Shown: positions 4,215 to 44,727 of the stretch, piece by piece
How the letters are laid out: every line of letters starts with the position of its first letter
Numbering within the stretch: the first letter of the stretch is position 1
Source: Flavobacterium notoginsengisoli
Lineage (GTDB): Bacteria; Bacteroidota; Bacteroidia; Flavobacteriales; Flavobacteriaceae
NCBI RefSeq assembly: GCF_014207905.1
Contig: NZ_JACHLB010000004.1
Location: 186,001 to 250,000, forward strand
Reading direction: 5' to 3'
DNA length: 64,000 nt
Notes under the pieces: model-generated
Told to the model about the DNA's origin: nothing
Seen by the model: only the letters and a program-made list of their open reading frames with translations
The model's database searches: none
Translations under genes and position numbers: made by a program

Positions 4215-6794
4215 TTATCTTCTGCCTCTAAAGCCTCCGCCACCTCTGAAACCGCCACCGCCAAAGCCGCCTCCATTAAATCCACCGCCACTTCTTTGGA
4301 TATTTTGGAAATTTCGAGTTTGCATTTCACCACGGTCTCTGGAAATAGCCGAACGGTCCAGATCACGTGTAACATCTGGACGACCTGCTTCACCAAGCGG
4401 TTTGTTTGGCTGTCCGAGTGTTTGGTCAGCTTTAGGGAAATTATCTCGTATTCCGTCACCCATTCTGGTTTCGCCTCCTAGGTTTTGATTATCGCGTTGC
4501 ATACGTTCTCCTGCTCCATTCGCACCAAGACCTTGATTATCGCGCTGAATTCTCTCTCCTGCACCATTCGCGCCAAGCCCTTGATTATCACGCTGAATTC
4601 GTTCTCCTGTTCCATTTGCACCAAGTCCTTGATTTGGTCTATTTTGAATTCCTTCACCCGTTTTTTTAGATGACCCTAGAGTTCCTGCCTTCGTCCAGCC
4701 GCCATTTCCATTATTATAATGGCTCCAGTTTCCGTTGGCATCCCTTTTATAGATATGTCCGTCGTGACCAGCATACAGATTATTGTTGGTATGAATTGTA
4801 GTTCCTCCGCCTCTTCTATGTGTGATTACACCTTTATTTCCGCCCGAAGTTTCATAACCAATTGCAGTTCCGCGACGGGTTGTAATATGTCCTGTCTGCG
4901 CCCACTGATTTCCGTTTGTAGCAGCCGAATGTCCCCATTGTGCATACGCATTATGCCCTTGATTCGTTCTCGCATAATTTCCTGTCCACGGATTATAAGT
5001 ACTTGCCGAAGTACGTCCACCGTACCAACCCTGAACGCTTGCAGAACGTCCGTATCTTCCCGTTGCAGGATTATACCAAGCCGAAGTTCCAGCAGCGCCA
5101 TAAGGTCCGTAAACACGTCTTCCTGCGGCGTAACCGCCTGTCCACGGATTGTAAACTGCACCGCCTCCGTATGCATAAGGCCACGGACGATAAATTGGAT
5201 ACATTCCGCCATAATACATATACGGTGGATAATACCATCCTGTACCGTACGATAAGATAGCGCCAAACGTAGCACCAATAATAAACGCGCCCAAATAACC
5301 TGCTGTTGCACTGCTTTCAACAGTTGTATCGGTTGTCGTTTGCGTTACATACGTCACATTATATACTGGCGAACTTGGCGGAATCGTATAAATTTCTTTC
5401 GGAACAGAATCGCAGGTTTTCCAAGGCCCATTCGGACTTGTAGACATAAACCAAACCGCCTGAAAACACAAATAATACAAATCGCCCACCTTTACAATTT
5501 TCTCTTGCGTATTGCTTGCATATTGCATTTTCGTTCCATCGATAGGTTTAAACTGAGGCGTTCCACCATCATACGATACTTTTACTTTGGCTTCAGCATC
5601 CGATTTCTTCAAAATAGCCGTCGTCGGAACTTGTGCCAACATTACAGCATCATTCGCTTCCTGCGTTCCTGGAACAGACGACAATACATTGGCACGCGGA
5701 GAATCTTTCGGAATTTTAGCAAAATCATCCGGAAGACTATTTCCGGCATACGACCAAGGCCCTGTCAAATCTTTAGACTTAAACCATCTTCCAGACAATA
5801 AAATATAGTACTGTCCTTTATTTTCGTCGGCAAAAACGTCATTTTCGGTATTTTCTATATATAACAATTTGGTCCCTGGAATTTTTTTAAATATCGGATT
5901 TCCGTTTATAGCAATCAATTCCGCTGGTTTATTACTGTAGAAAACCTCTGGAGCTCCGCCAGATGAAGGTGGTGGAATCATTTTTTTGACATCATCAAAA
6001 TTCTGTCCCGAAGGCAGATTACTTAAACCCGCAGGCAATTTGGTGGTTTTAGTCCATTTGCCCGCCACATTTTTCGAAGTCAGCCAGATATTCTCTACCA
6101 ACAGATAATAATCTTTTGTGGTTTTATCAAAAAACAAATCCCAATTGGTATTTACAACATATTGAATATCTGTTTTTTCTACAGGCACCAAAACCGGTTC
6201 GCCCTGTACAATAAGCAAAATGGCAGGATTCGTACTGTAAAAAATTGTCGGAGGATCATTTTTAGAAGCGATTCCCTTAGACGGACTTTTGGTATGACTC
6301 AAATCTGCCAAAATACGATCTACCGAAATAGGGTCTCCGCTTTTAGGCAACGTTTCTTTAAACAGCTTTTCCATTTCTGGCACTTTCTTTTTGTCCAGAG
6401 CAGGAAAACGGATATCGGTTACCTGAAGATTTTTAATAAAAGCGCTTCGGTTGTCTTTATCTACCAATGTTTCCGCTTTTAGAGAAGCCACGCCCAAAAC
6501 CTGTTTTCCGTCTTTTGGAGTCAGCGAAAAAGCCACTCTAGCTGTAATCTCTTTAAAATCTTTCCAGTCGTCTACCTGAGGCTGATAATAAACCAGTTTT
6601 GTACCGTTATTTTCAGCTTCACGAGGCCAGCCACGATCTGCAATCAAAGCAGAACTGGCAGTATCAGACTTTACAGCTTCAGTACCCGACTGCTCTGTAT
6701 CTTTATCTTTTTTGCAGGAGAACAAAACCGTACTCAAACAAACAGCAAGTATTAGAAAAGCATTTCTCATAAATTTTAAGGTTAGATTATTCAT
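4215..6794 (-). CDS. Large repeat-rich surface lipoprotein of unknown function
   Basis: An 859-residue predicted lipoprotein: lipobox LFSC with C27, followed by a charged linker. The first half contains at least three related modules (each with a P-x-I/V-F-Y-S-like strand, a ..GxPxLxP.. or KxIPGTKLLYIENT strand, then a YYxLxxxxWFxSKxxxGPW motif), which looks like a tandem beta-rich repeat domain. The middle (about 510-700) is rich in Tyr, Gly, Trp and Asn, with YNPWTG and YNPATG repeats. Then come 16-residue repeats of the type NQGLGANGAGERIQRD, and a Gly/Phe/Arg C-terminus (GGGFGGGGFRGGGG). Likely anchored to the outer membrane and exposed. I cannot assign a function. Confidence 0.8.
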   Translation of the reverse strand: MNNLTLKFMRNAFLILAVCLSTVLFSCKKDKDTEQSGTEAVKSDTASSALIADRGWPREAENNGTKLVYYQPQVDDWKDFKEITARVAFSLTPKDGKQVLGVASLKAETLVDKDNRSAFIKNLQVTDIRFPALDKKKVPEMEKLFKETLPKSGDPISVDRILADLSHTKSPSKGIASKNDPPTIFYSTNPAILLIVQGEPVLVPVEKTDIQYVVNTNWDLFFDKTTKDYYLLVENIWLTSKNVAGKWTKTTKLPAGLSNLPSGQNFDDVKKMIPPPSSGGAPEVFYSNKPAELIAINGNPIFKKIPGTKLLYIENTENDVFADENKGQYYILLSGRWFKSKDLTGPWSYAGNSLPDDFAKIPKDSPRANVLSSVPGTQEANDAVMLAQVPTTAILKKSDAEAKVKVSYDGGTPQFKPIDGTKMQYASNTQEKIVKVGDLYYLCFQAVWFMSTSPNGPWKTCDSVPKEIYTIPPSSPVYNVTYVTQTTTDTTVESSATAGYLGAFIIGATFGAILSYGTGWYYPPYMYYGGMYPIYRPWPYAYGGGAVYNPWTGGYAAGRRVYGPYGAAGTSAWYNPATGRYGRSASVQGWYGGRTSASTYNPWTGNYARTNQGHNAYAQWGHSAATNGNQWAQTGHITTRRGTAIGYETSGGNKGVITHRRGGGTTIHTNNNLYAGHDGHIYKRDANGNWSHYNNGNGGWTKAGTLGSSKKTGEGIQNRPNQGLGANGTGERIQRDNQGLGANGAGERIQRDNQGLGANGAGERMQRDNQNLGGETRMGDGIRDNFPKADQTLGQPNKPLGEAGRPDVTRDLDRSAISRDRGEMQTRNFQNIQRSGGGFNGGGFGGGGFRGGGGFRGRR
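4480..4650. repeat. 48-bp in-frame tandem repeats inside the lipoprotein gene
   Basis: Three to four copies of a 48-bp unit encode NQGLGANGxGERxQRD. Third-position differences between copies (for example TTCGCACC, TTCGCGCC, TTTGCACC) show they are not brand new. Unit number may vary between strains. Confidence 0.8.
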
Positions 6795-6994: not shown

Positions 6995-7083
6995 TAGGAG
7001 CTATTTCCCGCTATCCGCTATATCTTTTTCTTGCTAAAGAAGCAAGAAAAAGGATGCCGCTACTATCGGGGCTAGGGCACTCG
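6995..7083. repeat. Interspersed repeat with internal hairpin
   Basis: Contains CTATTTCCCGCTATCCGCTA, then CTTTTTCTTGCTAAAGAAGCAAGAAAAAG (a strong hairpin at about 7024-7052), then GGATGCCGCTACTATCGGGG. I recognise this as a common intergenic repeat in Flavobacterium genomes. It lies between the lipoprotein start and a doubtful small frame at 7123. Confidence 0.6.
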
Positions 7084-10473: not shown

Positions 10474-11559
10474 TCAAATCTTTAAATCATTAAAATATGT
10501 CGTTGTTTCTTCAATTAAAGAATGCATTAATGCTGAAGCTTTTCTGTGTTTTAATATTGGAGAAATCTGTCCGCCCCAGAATAAAATCATATCCCATTTT
10601 TGCTGTTCTAGCGCAGCTTTTCTCAATGGAGACATAAAAGTAGTCTGTAAGGGAAATGGCAAAAAATCGGCTTCTTTTGCAATTAAGTCTTTTGCCAATC
10701 GGCTAGATAATCCACGACCTAATCTACCTGTATATGCCCGCGATAAGGTTGTATATTTTGAAGCATCCGAAAACAGCATTTCTCTATGGACAGGCAGCGC
10801 ATTAGATTCGTCTGTAGCCAAGAATGCTGTTCCTATTTGAGCCGCATCAGCACCTAATGTCAATGCCGCGGCGATACCTTTTCCTGTTGCGATTCCGCCC
10901 GCTGCGATTATAGGCACTTTTACCTTTTCACGAATAAGCTGCAATAAAACAAAAGTTCCCGTTAATGAAGATTCTGCGTTAGTTAAAAATGAAGGACGAT
11001 GCCCTCCTGCTTCAAAACCAGAGGCAATAATCATATCGGTACCTGCATTTTCTAAAAAAATAGCTTCATCTAAAGTTGTAGCTGCACCGACAGTAGAAAT
11101 TCCCAATTTACGGCATTGTTCCATTACATCTTCAGAAAGCGTTCCGAACATAAAACTGAAAACTTTTGGACGAATGTCTAAAATAACTTCCAATTGGTTT
11201 TCAAATCGAGATTGGAATGGCGCTGGTTTTTCTGGCAATGGAATTCCTGCTTCATCAAAATAGGGTTTAAATAGTGTTTTTGCTCGTTCAAAATGTTCAT
11301 CACTAAGTCCAGATTGAGAAATATCATGATCCGAAACCCACAAATTGATATTATAAGGCTTATTGGTTGCGGCTTTTATTTGTTTATCAACATCGAATAT
11401 TTCTTGCTGAGTCATTGTATAAGCGCCATATCCGCCTAAACCGCCAGCGTTAGAAACAGCCGCTGTGAGTTCGACCGAAGAAAGATTTCCTCCAAACGGA
11501 CCTTGCAGTATTGGATAATCAATTCCTAATAATTTGGCAACTTTGGTGTTATTCCACAT
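10474..11559 (-). CDS. Nitronate monooxygenase family flavoprotein
   Basis: A 361-residue TIM-barrel FMN enzyme of the 2-nitropropane dioxygenase/nitronate monooxygenase family. Seen: LGIDYPILQGPFGG at the N-terminus, the family-like GFEAGGHRPS with the conserved His, and phosphate-binding IIAAGGIATGKGIAAALTLGADAAQIGTAFLA. The family oxidises alkyl nitronates such as propionate 3-nitronate, though many members reduce other flavin substrates. It is the last gene of a tight five-gene minus-strand operon and is followed by a strong terminator. Confidence 0.88.
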   Translation of the reverse strand: MWNNTKVAKLLGIDYPILQGPFGGNLSSVELTAAVSNAGGLGGYGAYTMTQQEIFDVDKQIKAATNKPYNINLWVSDHDISQSGLSDEHFERAKTLFKPYFDEAGIPLPEKPAPFQSRFENQLEVILDIRPKVFSFMFGTLSEDVMEQCRKLGISTVGAATTLDEAIFLENAGTDMIIASGFEAGGHRPSFLTNAESSLTGTFVLLQLIREKVKVPIIAAGGIATGKGIAAALTLGADAAQIGTAFLATDESNALPVHREMLFSDASKYTTLSRAYTGRLGRGLSSRLAKDLIAKEADFLPFPLQTTFMSPLRKAALEQQKWDMILFWGGQISPILKHRKASALMHSLIEETTTYFNDLKI

Positions 11560-11576: not shown

Positions 11577-12026
11577 TTATTGGCTAAGATCTGTCAGCAT
11601 TTTATTGACAATAATCCATTTTCCATCAAATTTATGGAAAGATAAAAGATCTCGATAATTAAAATCATACATTTTTACGTTCAATTCTACCACTGCAATC
11701 GAATTTATGATTGTAATGTTTAGTATTTCTCCTTTAAAAGGTTTTCCAGAATCTTTAGGACTTTGTCTGTTTTTGACACCATCCAGATAAAGGTCTATTG
11801 TTTTAAAATAAGGTTGTCCTTTTACATCTCCAAAAAGTAATGTTCCAGGATGAAAAATTTTCCCTAACAGCCTAACATCTCCTTCGTAAATTCCTTTAAA
11901 ATAATAATCTTCAATTACTTCGGTAATGGCTTTTGTTTCTCCTTGATTTTCCATTTCGATATTAGATTGTGCTTTTATACCCTGCCAAAAACAGAGCATA
12001 AAAGCAGTTAATAAAATTGTTTTCAC
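11577..12026 (-). CDS. Secreted NTF2-like protein, lumazine-binding-like
   Basis: A 149-residue protein with a signal peptide (MKTILLTAFMLCFWQGIKAQ) and an NTF2/SnoaL-like fold: helix ITEVIEDYYFKGIYEGD, then FHPGTLLFGDVKG, and the sandwich strands ending FHKFDGKWIIVNKML. It resembles the family named putative lumazine-binding (Lumazine_bd_2); real ligands are unknown. It begins 1 bp after the SDR stop and ends 17 bp before the nitronate monooxygenase start, so it is co-transcribed. Confidence 0.78.
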   Translation of the reverse strand: MKTILLTAFMLCFWQGIKAQSNIEMENQGETKAITEVIEDYYFKGIYEGDVRLLGKIFHPGTLLFGDVKGQPYFKTIDLYLDGVKNRQSPKDSGKPFKGEILNITIINSIAVVELNVKMYDFNYRDLLSFHKFDGKWIIVNKMLTDLSQ

Positions 12027-12027
12027 T

Positions 12028-12762
12028 TTAGTTCAAATTATGTCCAGCACCTTTACCTCCATCAACATTAATGATAGAGCCTGTAATAAAGTTACTTTTG
12101 GCTACGGTATACACCATTTCTGCAATATCGTCGATTTCTCCTACTCTATTTACTAAATGCAATCCTGCACTCAAATCTGCTTTATCGCCATGCATTGGTG
12201 TGCGAATAACTCCTGGTGCAACAGTGTTTACTCTAATATTTTGTTTTCCGAATTCTGCAGCCAATTGAATCGTAAGAGCATGAATAGCGCCTTTACTTGC
12301 AATTGGTGCCGAAGCAGGCCATCCTCCTAAACCGTGATTTACAAGAGGCGTTCCGATGTTGATGACAACTCCGTCTTGCTGTTTCAACATTTGCGGAATT
12401 ACAGATTGTGTTGTAAAATAAGTTCCTTTTAGATTTGTAGATAAAAATTTATCCAAGTAAGATTCTTCAACTTCTAAAAATGGTTTGCTTTCAAAAATCC
12501 CTGCATTATTAATTAAGACATCTACTGAACCAAAATTTTCAAGAGCAATTTTCACCAATTCTTCTCCTGTTTTTTTATTACTTACATCTCCCGCAAACAT
12601 GGCAAGATTATCTCCTGCTCCGAATTCGTCAAATGTATTTTGTAATGCTGTTTCTGTAAAAGAATTGATTACAACATTATCTCCACGGTCTAAAAAGTAT
12701 TTTGCAATTCCTTTTCCGATACCAGAACCAGCTCCAGTAACGATTATAGTCTGTTTTTTCAT
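12028..12762 (-). CDS. SDR family protein lacking the catalytic tyrosine
   Basis: A 244-residue Rossmann-fold SDR with the cofactor motif TGAGSGIGKGIA (residues 9-20) and NNAG (86-89). In the active site, where classical SDRs have Y-x-x-x-K, this protein reads PIASK, so Pro153 takes the Tyr position although Lys157 stays. The catalytic Ser is also replaced by Thr138 (NIGTP). The C-terminal RVNTVAPGVIRTPM is normal. It may use another proton donor or be a binding protein. It is third in the operon, 4 bp after the tautomerase. Confidence 0.85.
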   Translation of the reverse strand: MKKQTIIVTGAGSGIGKGIAKYFLDRGDNVVINSFTETALQNTFDEFGAGDNLAMFAGDVSNKKTGEELVKIALENFGSVDVLINNAGIFESKPFLEVEESYLDKFLSTNLKGTYFTTQSVIPQMLKQQDGVVINIGTPLVNHGLGGWPASAPIASKGAIHALTIQLAAEFGKQNIRVNTVAPGVIRTPMHGDKADLSAGLHLVNRVGEIDDIAEMVYTVAKSNFITGSIINVDGGKGAGHNLN

Positions 12763-12766
12763 GATT

Positions 12767-12985
12767 TTATTTTTTATCGGCTGTAATGCCTTTTTCTCTT
12801 AATACTGAAACTTGTTCTCCTGCGTAACCCCAATTATCGAGATCAATTTCATGAATTGCAATGTGGGTCAAATGCGGATCTTTGTTTAAAACCTCAGTAA
12901 TTAAATTCGTAATTCCTTTTATTAATTCTTGTTTTTGTTCGCGAGTAACGCCTTCGCGAGTCAATTCGATATTTACGTAAGGCAT
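12767..12985 (-). CDS. 4-oxalocrotonate tautomerase family protein
   Basis: A 72-residue member of the tautomerase superfamily. Pro2 follows Met1 and would be the N-terminal catalytic base after Met removal (MPYVNIELT), and the small alpha/beta subunit (TREQKQELIKGITNLITEVL) is typical. These enzymes convert enol and keto forms of unsaturated diacids or related electrophiles. Its place in an operon with YceI, an SDR and a nitronate-monooxygenase-like enzyme hints at reactive carbonyl or quinone metabolism, but no substrate is evident. Confidence 0.87.
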   Translation of the reverse strand: MPYVNIELTREGVTREQKQELIKGITNLITEVLNKDPHLTHIAIHEIDLDNWGYAGEQVSVLREKGITADKK

Positions 12986-12989
12986 GACT

Positions 12990-13532
12990 TTAGTTTTTAG
13001 AAGTTTGAGCAGTAATGTTGAAATCTAAATCAAAATCATTGTAGATTAAAGTATCTCCCAAATCTTTAAAGAAGTTTCCTGATCGAAATTTAATATCGTA
13101 TTTGGTACGATCAATAACCAATTTTCCTGCTAATGAAAAGGCATTGCCATTACTTTCTTCTAATTTTACCTCAAAACCAGTAAGATGAGTAATATCTTTT
13201 ATGGTCAGATTTCCTTCTAAATAATAAGAATTTGAAGTTAGCTGTTTGGCAGTAATAATATCAAACGAAGCAGTTGGGAATTTTTCGATAGAGAAAAAAT
13301 CATCTGAAGCTAAATGTCCTGCAAATTGTGCATTTGTGGCTGCATCTGTAACGTCTAATATTTTGATTGTAGCAATGTCGATGATAATCTTGCCTCCAAT
13401 AATTTTTCCGCTATTAATGATAAAATTACCTTCTTTGATACCTATTGTACCATTATGTGCGCCGGTTACTTTTCTCCCGATCCAATCGATTTGGCTTTTT
13501 GCACTATCGATTTTAAATTGTATTGTTTCCAT
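12990..13532 (-). CDS. YceI family lipid-binding protein (no signal peptide)
   Basis: A 180-residue YceI-domain protein. The start METIQFKIDSAKSQIDWIGRKVTGAHNG and the later FPTASFDI and NLTIKDITHLTGF segments match the YceI lipocalin-like beta barrel, which binds polyisoprenoid or amphiphilic ligands. Most YceI proteins are periplasmic, but no signal peptide is visible here, so it looks cytoplasmic. It is the first gene of the operon, with a CRP-like palindrome about 57-70 bp upstream of its start. Confidence 0.87.
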   Translation of the reverse strand: METIQFKIDSAKSQIDWIGRKVTGAHNGTIGIKEGNFIINSGKIIGGKIIIDIATIKILDVTDAATNAQFAGHLASDDFFSIEKFPTASFDIITAKQLTSNSYYLEGNLTIKDITHLTGFEVKLEESNGNAFSLAGKLVIDRTKYDIKFRSGNFFKDLGDTLIYNDFDLDFNITAQTSKN

Positions 13533-13586
13533 TTTTATTGTATTTAAAAGTACAATACAAAGGAACGGCGGTTACAGAAATTGGTT

Positions 13587-13605
13587 ACGTGATGTAGATC
13601 ACATT
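13587..13605 (-). promoter_or_regulatory. CRP-like palindromic operator upstream of the yceI operon
   Basis: On the minus strand the site reads AATGTGATCTACATCACGT, very close to the E. coli CRP consensus (TGTGA-N6-TCACA). It lies between the stop of the Crp-type regulator gene (13609) and the YceI start (13532). That regulator's recognition helix has CRP's Arg-Glu-x-x-x-Arg contacts. Confidence 0.7.
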
Positions 13606-13608
13606 CGG

Positions 13609-14184
13609 CTAATGAGAATTATATAGTCTGCTAAGCGTTTCTCTAGAAACTCCTAAATAAGCAGCAATTAAATGTTTTGGAACCAAATTGTAGAGTTGAG
13701 GATAAAGCGCTAAAAGTTCTTCATAACGCTTTTTCGTATTATTATTCATTAAAGATAATAGTCTTTTTTGAGACGCAATATATCCTTTGTTGGTGCGCCA
13801 GCGAAAGAAATGTTCTATTTGATGGAATTCGTTGCAAAGTTTTTCACGATCTTCATTTGTAAGACATAAAACTTCTACATCCGTTATACAATCTACATTT
13901 ATAGTTGCTTTTGTTTGATTGTATAAAGCATCATAATCAGAGGTCCACCAAGTTGGCATGGCAAATTGAAGAATATACATCTTGATTTCATCATTGATGA
14001 AAAATGCTTTCAAACAGCCTGAAATAACGAAATATTCGCAATCAACTTTATCTCCAGCACTAATTACGGTCTGCCCTTTTTTAAAAGATTGCAATTTAAA
14101 ATGCGAAAAGAAATATTCGAACTCTTCATCTGTTAATGAAACAGTTTTGGAAATATGATTTTGAAGAATTTCTTTAGAGTTCAT
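13609..14184 (-). CDS. Crp/Fnr family regulator with a CRP-type recognition helix
   Basis: A 191-residue cNMP-binding-fold regulator. The N-terminal beta-roll spans about residues 20-120 (for example KKGQTVISAGDKVDCEYFVISGCLKAFF), followed by the dimer helix and a short HTH: HLIAAYLGVSRETLSRLYNSH. The RETLSR helix carries the Arg, Glu and Arg that E. coli CRP uses to read TGTGA. It lacks a clear cAMP pocket. I use the ATG start (MNSKEILQNH); the frame extends upstream only to a TTG. It lies directly upstream of the YceI operon on the same strand. Confidence 0.86.
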   Translation of the reverse strand: MNSKEILQNHISKTVSLTDEEFEYFFSHFKLQSFKKGQTVISAGDKVDCEYFVISGCLKAFFINDEIKMYILQFAMPTWWTSDYDALYNQTKATINVDCITDVEVLCLTNEDREKLCNEFHQIEHFFRWRTNKGYIASQKRLLSLMNNNTKKRYEELLALYPQLYNLVPKHLIAAYLGVSRETLSRLYNSH

Positions 14185-28568: not shown

Positions 28569-28632
28569 ATAAAAATAATCCTCGTTTACCGTTAACTTTT
28601 TACCTTTATTCTATAATACTAAAATTCCATTG

Positions 28633-29193
28633 ATGGATATTTCCAAAATTCTTGATCTCATATACCAAATTCCGGAGCAGTCAAAATTGACGATTCAAAA
28701 TAATGTCAATGAAATTGCTTTCCCGAAAGGGCATATTTTATTAAAAGCCAACAAAATAGAATCTAATATTTATTTTATAAAAAAAGGTTTAGTAAGAGCT
28801 TTTATCGAAAGAGATAATGAAGTGACATTTTGGTTTGGAAAAGAAGGCGAAACCGTGATTTCTATGAAAAGTTATGTCGAAGATCAGCCTGGTTATGAAA
28901 ACATCGAACTTCTGGAAGATTGCGAATTGTACGAACTCAAAACCGAAAATCTTAGAAAGCTTTTCAGCGAAGATGTTCACATTGCAAACTGGGGAAGAAA
29001 ATTTGCCGAAAAAGAATTGATTAAAACCGAAGAACGACTGATTTCTAAACAATTCAAAAATGCTTCAGAACGTTATTTGGAATTAATGAAAGATCATCCC
29101 GAGCTTATTAAAAGAGTACAATTAGGCCATATTGCTTCTTATTTAGGAATCACACAAGTTAGTTTAAGCAGAATTCGTGCAGAATTAAAATAA
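28633..29193 (+). CDS. Crp/Fnr family regulator
   Basis: A 186-residue cNMP-fold regulator: beta-roll with GHILLKANKIESNIYFIKKGLVRAF, dimer helix KFAEKELIKTEERLISKQFKNASERYLELMKDHPELIKRV (approximate), and a short HTH (GHIASYLGITQVSLSRIRAELK). The recognition helix reads QVSLSR, lacking the Glu that CRP and FNR use, so its DNA site should differ from those of the other two Crp proteins in the window. The ATG at 28633 follows an in-frame TTG. It precedes the SMR exporter by 73 bp and may control it. Confidence 0.87.
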   Translation: MDISKILDLIYQIPEQSKLTIQNNVNEIAFPKGHILLKANKIESNIYFIKKGLVRAFIERDNEVTFWFGKEGETVISMKSYVEDQPGYENIELLEDCELYELKTENLRKLFSEDVHIANWGRKFAEKELIKTEERLISKQFKNASERYLELMKDHPELIKRVQLGHIASYLGITQVSLSRIRAELK

Positions 29194-29266
29194 TTTCATT
29201 TTTTATCATTTGTTAAATTTTTTCCGAATTCGATAAAAGAACTTTGCACCTTAAATTTTTAACTAT

Positions 29267-29593
29267 ATGAACTGGATTATTTTAATCATTGCCGGCTTAT
29301 TTGAAGTAGCCTTTGCCTCTTGTCTTGGAAAAGCAAAAGCAACCACTGGAACTGAAATGTATTATTGGTATATTGGATTCTTTATTTCTTTAACTGTTAG
29401 TATGCTTTTATTGATGAAAGCCACAGAAACACTTCCTTTAGGAACAGCTTATGCAGTTTGGACAGGAATTGGAGCTGTTGGAACAGTTTTAGTCGGAATC
29501 TTTGTTTTTAAAGAACCTGCAGCATTTTGGAGATTGTTTTTCTTAGCTACTTTGGTCGGTTCTATTGTTGGTTTAAAGGCGGTTTCGCACTAA
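29267..29593 (+). CDS. sugE: SMR family exporter, SugE/Gdx-like
   Basis: A 108-residue four-helix small multidrug resistance protein. The first helix is MNWIILIIAGLFEVAFASCLGKA with the essential Glu13, and later helices carry GTAYAVWTGIGAVGTVLVG and FKEPAAFWRLFFLATLVGSIVGLKAVSH. The WTG(I)GAVGT(V) and AFASCLG patterns favour the SugE/Gdx group (guanidinium or small quaternary ammonium export) over EmrE. I see no convincing guanidine riboswitch in the short leader. A palindrome with a T tail follows. Confidence 0.88.
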   Translation: MNWIILIIAGLFEVAFASCLGKAKATTGTEMYYWYIGFFISLTVSMLLLMKATETLPLGTAYAVWTGIGAVGTVLVGIFVFKEPAAFWRLFFLATLVGSIVGLKAVSH

Positions 29594-44157: not shown

Positions 44158-44727
44158 ATGATAAGTGAACTTGAAGCTTTAATTCAGAGCAAATTACAAT
44201 TGGAAAATGAGGATTTGAACACCGTTCTTTCCTGCTTTAAATTAGTGCATGCAAAGAAAAATGAACAATTGCTTAAAAGCGGTGCAATTGCAGACAAAAT
44301 CTTTTTTATAAATAAAGGCTGTTTAAGACTCTATTACAGCACAGAAGATCATGCCGTTGCTACCCGTTTTATGGCTTTTGAAGGTACATTTCTAACTTCA
44401 ATTGTGAGTTTTATTTCGAGAGAACCTAGCGTAGAATATATTGAAGCCGTTGAAAATTCAGAGCTTTTAGCGATTTCTTACGACGATTTTTTTCGACTTC
44501 GAAATACGATTCCGCAATGGGACAAAATGTACATTTATATTCTCGAATACGGTTTAACTGTTATCACTTCTAAGCTCAGCAGTTTATTGACACAAAACGC
44601 TGCCGAAAGATATCGCAATCTTCTTAAAAACAATCCAGAACTTATTCAGAGATTATCTAATGCCAATCTTGCTTCCTATCTTAATATTTCGCCAGAAACA
44701 TTAAGCAGAATAAAATCACAGATTTAA
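44158..44727 (+). CDS. Crp/Fnr family regulator with an FNR-type recognition helix
   Basis: A 189-residue regulator. The beta-roll contains KKNEQLLKSGAIADKIFFINKGCLRLYY, and the C-terminal HTH is ANLASYLNISPETLSRIKSQI. The helix PETLSR keeps the Glu, Ser and Arg of FNR's VETISR and lacks CRP's extra Arg, which fits the TTGAC-N4-GTCAA palindrome upstream. There is no N-terminal cysteine cluster, so an Fe-S oxygen sensor as in E. coli FNR is not supported. It ends 47 bp before ilvD. Autoregulation is inferred. Confidence 0.87.
   Translation: MISELEALIQSKLQLENEDLNTVLSCFKLVHAKKNEQLLKSGAIADKIFFINKGCLRLYYSTEDHAVATRFMAFEGTFLTSIVSFISREPSVEYIEAVENSELLAISYDDFFRLRNTIPQWDKMYIYILEYGLTVITSKLSSLLTQNAAERYRNLLKNNPELIQRLSNANLASYLNISPETLSRIKSQI

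Follow-up and report, generated by a model that had tools for sequence, protein, structure and literature searches.

In a 64,000-nucleotide stretch of the Flavobacterium notoginsengisoli genome (the window), a short Crp-type regulator very probably acts as a local class II CRP-type activator of the adjacent YceI operon through a CRP-like palindrome, which appears from sequence comparison to be the best explanation overall. With similarly high confidence, we suggest that a large share of the short Crp-type regulators of Bacteroidota are self-contained switches, each with its own target promoter adjoining and a 16-bp palindrome centred at −41.5/−42.5, whose half-site is set by base-reading residues of the wingless helix and yields a readable recognition code. 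The features concerned are listed below by window position.

13609-14184, minus strand: short Crp-type regulator, 191 aa, with a cNMP_binding domain, then a helix-turn-helix (HTH) ending at the reading helix, wingless
13624-13647, minus strand: codons of the reading helix core SRETLSRL, residues 180-187 (ORF translation)
13588-13603, minus strand: candidate CRP-like operator TGTGATCTACATCACG, predicted centre about −42.5
13558-13565, minus strand: predicted −7 promoter element TTCCTTTG, from TTTG and the F. johnsoniae numbering
13553, minus strand: predicted transcription start, placed from the G of TTTG at −5
12990-13532, minus strand: YceI-like protein, first operon gene (Pfam)
12767-12985, minus strand: tautomerase-like protein, 72 aa (length by eye; Pfam run on 70 aa)
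12028-12762, minus strand: short-chain dehydrogenase, SDR (Pfam)
11577-12026, minus strand: lumazine-binding-like protein, LumBd (Pfam Lumazine_bd_2)
10474-11559, minus strand: nitronate monooxygenase family protein, NMO, last operon gene

The candidate operator is included in AATGTGATCTACATCACGT (13587-13605, minus strand), which lies between the regulator and the YceI operon. The initial annotation had put the palindrome 7 bp past the stop codon of the regulator; its location was right, whereas the distance was slightly off, as there are five bases between the stop codon (13609-13611) and the initial T of TGTGA. The −7 element of F. johnsoniae is given as T-12 A-11 H H T-8 T-7 T-6 G-5 in PMC6847099. 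On the basis of this numbering, the TTTG found 26 nt past the 16-mer would place the operator centre at −42.5 from the predicted start, and the 5' leader of the YceI operon would be ∼21 nt. Class II sites of E. coli are centred at −41.5, one base away from the predicted centre. The −11 position carries T for A and no TTTG could be found at −33 of the window promoter, as expected for a promoter that needs help. An inverted repeat, TATTGTA-N8-TACAATA, was also observed at 13536-13557 (minus strand), spanning the predicted YceI start region, and several Flavobacterium loci carry a related repeat, TGTAnTTTTAAAnACA, at a distance of 49 bp from where the site starts.

We propose the following mechanism. 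The regulator would be a local, cAMP-independent and wingless member of the CRP/FNR superfamily, whose dimer would read TGTGAT-N4-ATCAC(G) through Arg181, Glu182 and Arg186. From a position around −42.5, immediately before a weak putative sigma-A promoter (TTCCTTTG), it would recruit RNA polymerase in class II fashion and turn on the YceI-tautomerase-SDR-LumBd-NMO operon. Judging from the gene content of this operon and of the sister cassettes described below (DJ-1/PfpI, old-yellow-enzyme-like and OsmC-like genes), our guess is that the signal might be a reactive small molecule, such as an electrophile, a quinone or a nitro compound.

The arrangement was compared in 81 loci, that is, the window and the best 80 of 233 relatives from one scan of named genomes, which represent several Bacteroidota genera. 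In 80 of the 81 loci the site (at least 9 of 12 arm positions) had TTTG exactly 26 nt downstream, a spacing that formed part of the selection rule; the single miss (L017) is cut by a contig end. Positions 2-5 (G, T, G, A), the central TA and TCAC were invariant in all 80 sites, and the last base was G in 70, C in 8 and A in 2 of them. The TTTG core was likewise present in 80/80, with T at −11 in 76 and A in 4. Because orthologues share common descent, the 80 loci, with 75 distinct 66-mers among their sites, do not represent 80 independent events. The reversed pattern gave no match in 976 kb of orthologue loci and the TTTG spacing is fixed in 80/81, so the site appears to be above chance.

YceI was located downstream on the same strand in 75 of the 80 loci (best 80 of 233) and the site was present in all 75; thus, the absence of the palindrome upstream of orthologous operons, which the initial annotation had named as a refutation, was not observed. 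In these loci 10-12 of 12 arm positions matched, and the distance from the site centre to the YceI ATG was 61-78 bp. Four further loci (L034, L050, L070 and L079) have lost YceI and have kept the site before the gene that is now first in the operon. By tblastn, among the best 80 of 233 relatives, NMO was found in 75, YceI and LumBd in 74 each, the tautomerase in 73 and the SDR in 72. Extra sites off the main position were detected at six places (10 strand matches) in L037, L045, L053 and L054, of which four precede LumBd and two an OsmC-like gene (by eye). They stand where the LumBd or OsmC-like gene follows an inserted gene or the operon end, and TTTG was found at 26 in all six. A second strong site was also noted upstream of the main one in L047, L057, L058, L061, L064, L065, L071, L076, L078 and L080, at 27 bp in five loci and 37 bp in the other five. 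Autoregulation was considered and rejected: over 300 bp of sequence preceding the regulator, the best match reached only 7-9 of 12 positions (80 loci).

Alternatively, the palindrome might serve the regulator gene as an RNA hairpin or terminator, given that it lies directly past the stop codon in the window and that the gene of a paralogue (L117, see below) has a T-tailed hairpin at its end, the arms of which read GTGAT/ATCAC (about 5868-5897, minus strand). However, no T run follows the window palindrome, and its position is tied to the downstream TTTG and not to the stop codon, from which it varies between 2 and 614 bp among the best 80 of 233 relatives. RNA folding gave z = −1.2, with 27 of 200 shuffles as good, and on this result the reading was rejected; we assign it hardly any probability.

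How often such sites occur was also examined in the 5.5-Mb genome of the organism itself, a search that had been proposed at the outset. The exact TGTGA-N6-TCAC gave 18 matches at 15 places, compared with 19 for its reversed control, and a looser search with two mismatches and a longer pattern gave 53 against 57. The 64-kb window contains one exact occurrence, beside the regulator, but no enrichment could be observed genome-wide, so a single site is by itself not beyond chance and proves little. With neither exact nor two-mismatch sites enriched, a global regulator was rejected, and the regulator looks local. Thirteen other places carry an exact site, 10 within an ORF, two past a stop codon and one ambiguous; one of the two that follow a stop codon adjoins a globin-like gene (named by eye).

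The co-occurrence of regulator and site was examined in 91 genomes of the genus. An orthologue (E <= 1e-80) was present in 15, all of which had an exact TGTGAYNTANRTCACG nearby, no more than about 350 bp away, vs 2 of the 76 genomes lacking an orthologue with at least one such site anywhere (Fisher 2.5e-15). The reversed control produced five matches, in five of the same 91 genomes. In a 149-genome family sample, an 18-base version of the site was found in three genomes and its reversed control in none. Two genomes with an orthologue had a second site: in G156 (L161) it precedes a DJ-1/PfpI-like gene (by eye), with TTTG at 26, and in G197 (L163) it lies where another RE-type regulator gene ends. 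Conservation, spacing and co-occurrence thus support the earlier proposal that the operon is controlled through the CRP-like site, with binding and control both standing as predictions.

It should be considered whether a different CRP/FNR protein reads the palindrome in trans, the adjacency of the regulator being incidental. The genome encodes 18 Crp-type proteins, and two genomes without an orthologue (G155 and G168) carry a similar site, which may be read there by another regulator. On the other hand, only two of the 18 have an RE helix, and these two paralogues are the only ones with a palindrome score of at least 10 nearby (500 bp downstream, 400 bp upstream). Together with the co-occurrence over 91 genomes and the co-variation of helix and half-site shown below, this makes a trans reader very improbable, and the adjoining regulator is retained as the probable reader. 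The site of G155 (L154), CGTGATTTATATCACA, has TTTG about 25 nt on, within TAAATTTG, and precedes a small Cys-containing protein and a receptor-like gene (named by eye); it is perhaps the target of another regulator.

The translation of the 191-aa ORF (13609-14184, minus strand) ends in KHLIAAYLGVSRETLSRLYNSH, and the protein is 96% identical to its F. chungbukense counterpart. In a weak second phmmer segment, SRETLSRL was aligned with SRETVGRI of E. coli CRP, so that its Arg, Glu and Arg fall at the positions of CRP Arg180, Glu181 and Arg185. The translation and this alignment bear out the CRP-like Arg/Glu/Arg first read from the sequence. PMC12531629 tabulates these CRP residues as base contacts and describes the residues that contact bases as conserved within the family. 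R181, E182 and R186 were invariant across 30 aligned orthologues (of 81). Pfam cNMP_binding matched with 40.9 bits (cutoff 27.5), and no Pfam model for the HTH was found at E 1e-3. The curated NCBIfam models for CRP (PRK11753.1) and Fnr (PRK11161.1) gave scores well below their cutoffs (28.3 bits vs 266 and 24.2 bits vs 228, respectively).

An AlphaFold model built from 30 of the 81 orthologues (pLDDT 78.7) has the CRP/FNR fold, with helices at 170-177 and 181-189, and matches CRP/FNR chains; the absence of a family from the structure-match lists is uninformative. Only four residues follow the eight-residue helix core, and the model aligns only up to CRP residue 190, so that no wing follows the reading helix. 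Arg82 is the cAMP phosphate-binding residue of CRP. The window regulator contains no Arg in residues 1-112 and therefore has no counterpart of it; an Arg at position 92 was present in only some of the 30 aligned orthologues. The cAMP-sensing features were not found in the regulator sequence, and the doubt voiced earlier about cAMP binding proved well founded. In FNR, an N-terminal Cys cluster carries 4Fe-4S; no Cys occurs before residue 49 of the regulator, so there is no FNR-type N-terminal cluster. C57, C99 and C117 were invariant in the 30 aligned orthologues of 81, and the L117 paralogue lacks C117. That these conserved cysteines form a sensor is only an idea.

The second RE paralogue in the window's genome (L117:5917-6480) is 51% identical to the window regulator; downstream of it lie a gene that matched no family, a gene of the DJ-1/PfpI family (149 bits, cutoff 139) and an old-yellow-enzyme gene (393.6 bits, below the cutoff of 403). 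This paralogue and its relatives form a sister group of 14 distinct loci (L245-L258). A strong distal site (11-12 of 12 positions) with TTTG at 48-49 was identified in 13 of the 14 loci, L256 being without it, and lies 23 bp (about two turns) upstream of a weaker proximal site (6-10 of 12) with TTTG at 25-26. The proximal match was reached by <4% of shuffles in 11 of 14 loci and by 4.4% (L246), 4.6% (L249) and 16% (L247) in the others, rates that are somewhat generous as TTTG was chosen for best fit. A pure class I label for this group was dropped, the degenerate second TGTGA site at −41.5/−42.5 making the arrangement a tandem one. Going by these sites, use of the −42 position seems to be general, sister group included. 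In L170, where a sister regulator precedes a YceI-like gene, the one site found is degraded and has its TTTG at 25. The proximal sites of L170 (TGTGATATACATCCTT) and L256 (TGTGATGTATGTCCTG) look as if the right arm had lost one base, and in both TTTG is at 25, not 26.

The geometry of these promoters also bears on whether the regulator binds the site as a repressor and is freed by its signal. A local regulator beside detoxification-type genes is a common repressor layout, and the site borders the −33 region. However, the fixed centre at −42.5, the missing −33 TTTG and the T at −11 in 76/80 point to an activator-dependent weak promoter, and the stronger site 23 bp upstream in 13/14 sister loci also speaks against repression, although these are arguments from geometry only. 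Thus, repression appears unlikely, and class II activation remains the favoured explanation.

To see the wider picture, two sets of Crp-type regulators were used: a discovery set A of 95 matches from 14 genomes, and a set B that took in 104 of the 105 matches found in four further genomes (Chitinophaga, Pedobacter, Dyadobacter and Mucilaginibacter). A strict rule, which asked for a 16-mer close to the regulator with all six outer pairs complementary and TTTG 25 or 26 nt further on, gave 20 hits in set A against shuffled means of 0.48 (single-base) and 1.1 (dinucleotide; maximum 4), and 13 hits in set B against 0.42 and 0.9 (maximum 4). A relaxed rule (five of six pairs, at most 60 bp from the regulator stop) identified 67 of the 199 regulators in 18 genomes (shuffled means 1.25-2.5), 34/95 in set A and 33/104 in set B, or 32/92 and 29/100 without the focal orthologues; the dinucleotide-shuffled means were 1.2 and 1.3 per set, with maxima of 5 and 7. 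Other spacing pairs from 3 to 60 gave 0-13 matches, with a second peak at 47-50. The arrangement that the initial annotation described for one gene is not unique and represents one case of a wider rule. No palindrome was found under the relaxed rule for 132/199 regulators, whose targets may lie elsewhere. The helix core fell within the last 26 residues, the stretch examined, in 196/199 regulators and was mostly followed by 2-12 residues. Crp-type paralogues numbered 15-34 per genome in the seven richest of the genomes examined.

RE-type regulators stood out in both sets. A site scoring at least 11 was present for 4/9 of them vs 0/86 others in set A and for 11/20 vs 0/84 in set B; at a score of at least 10 the figures were 5/9 vs 2/86 and 11/20 vs 7/84, respectively. 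Without the focal orthologues, the RE counts at the score of at least 11 were 1/6 (set A) and 7/16 (set B), and six of these seven in set B had TTTG at 48-49, L269 having none at the listed spacings. No site scoring at least 10 was found within 500 bp of 4/9 (set A) and 9/20 (set B) RE-type regulators. RE helices that continue RIR or RVR (L186, L288, L297, L301 and L310) had no site.

Comparison of helices and half-sites suggests a recognition code. Helices of type RET-R go with TGTGAT, xET-R with xTTGAY, EY-E with CTTAAA, ATNF-K with xTTGGT, VH-R with GATAAC, and VH-R with Arg at the 180 position with GGTAAC (for example, STVHLSRI with GATAAC vs SRVHLSRI with GGTAAC). EF-K goes with xTTGAA in 4 of 7 pairs; L199 (THEFLSKI) is odd, with ACTTCA downstream and ATTGAACAAGTTCAAT on the divergent side. 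The SL-R type is varied, including xTTGCC, TTTACC, TTTCAC and xTTAAC. Over 50 distinct helix/half-site pairs (left arms), which are phylogenetically non-independent, Arg at the 180 position was associated with G at half-site position 2 (3/3 vs 0/47, p 5e-5), Glu at 181 with A at position 5 (24/25 vs 14/25, p 0.002) and Phe at 182 with A at position 6 (7/9 vs 3/41, p 4e-5), with a weaker link between residue 185 and position 4 (p 0.05-0.07). Among regulator pairs <40% identical outside the HTH, the mean number of half-site differences (of 5) was 2.31, 2.09, 1.60, 1.09 and 0.40 for zero to four shared readers, and the mean for three to four shared readers was reached by 0/5000 permutations. Since the site changes in step with the reading helix, regulator targets should be readable from sequence.

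The closest solved structure is PDB 3dn7, a cyclic nucleotide binding regulatory protein of Cytophaga hutchinsonii (E 3e-29), which also gave the highest VIA-align Z (20.3) and shares a WW.SDY motif in the alignment, whereas its helix is of the TPEYLSEI kind, paired with CTTAAA in sets A and B. The model likewise resembles E. coli CRP (1g6n residues 7-190; VIA-align Z 14.5, rmsd 3.5, 170 residues), and the two have in common the Arg/Glu/Arg base readers, an operator of the TGTGA-N6-TCACA type (in silico here) and a predicted position near that of class II sites. In contrast with CRP, the regulator lacks the phosphate-binding Arg and the wing, has a local target instead of a global regulon, and would act on a predicted promoter of the Bacteroidota TAnnTTTG type. 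The half-site of FNR is TTGAT. Sister regulators with TPETISRI-type helices had FNR-like CTTGAT half-sites in the same geometry, whereas the focal protein, which goes with TGTGAT, carries Arg at the position occupied by Val in FNR, and differs from FNR also in having no Cys in its first 48 residues. According to the abstracts of studies on two other families, GntR and IclR, operator motifs have been analysed jointly with DNA-reading residues (PMC4494728, PMC8222616); the Crp-type regulators add to this a nearly constant distance from the promoter.

No paper dealing with operators of short Bacteroidota Crp-type regulators was found in open-licence PMC, in a search that possibly missed the slash form Crp/Fnr, and words beginning with Bacteroid or Flavobacter gave no hit in a term search of the main text of PMC12531629. 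The general layout and the code are the more novel part, beyond the focal case. In PMC12531629, class I activation via AR1 is claimed to be confined to E. coli-type CRP; the strong distal site of the sister group (about −64.5) with its weaker companion at −41.5/−42.5 bears on this claim. If the rule is true, the operators and targets of many uncharacterised regulators could be predicted, the nearly fixed geometry and the code turning each short regulator into a testable prediction. They would also supply signal-responsive promoter parts for Bacteroidota, and the pairs provide a natural data set on the interconversion of CRP and FNR specificity.

Two more Crp-type regulators were observed in the window. 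The one at 44158-44727 (plus strand; helix SPETLSRI) has no such palindrome before the dihydroxyacid-dehydratase-like gene (by eye) that follows it. The other, at 28630-29193 (plus strand; helix TQVSLSRI), is followed 8 bp past its stop codon by an imperfect palindrome, TTTATCATTTGTTAAA (29202-29217), then by TTTG at 29243-29246 (25 nt on) and by a small multidrug-resistance-type transporter (by eye) at 29267. A Flavo-1 RNA (Rfam RF01705, 81 bits) is located at 7000-7077 (minus strand).
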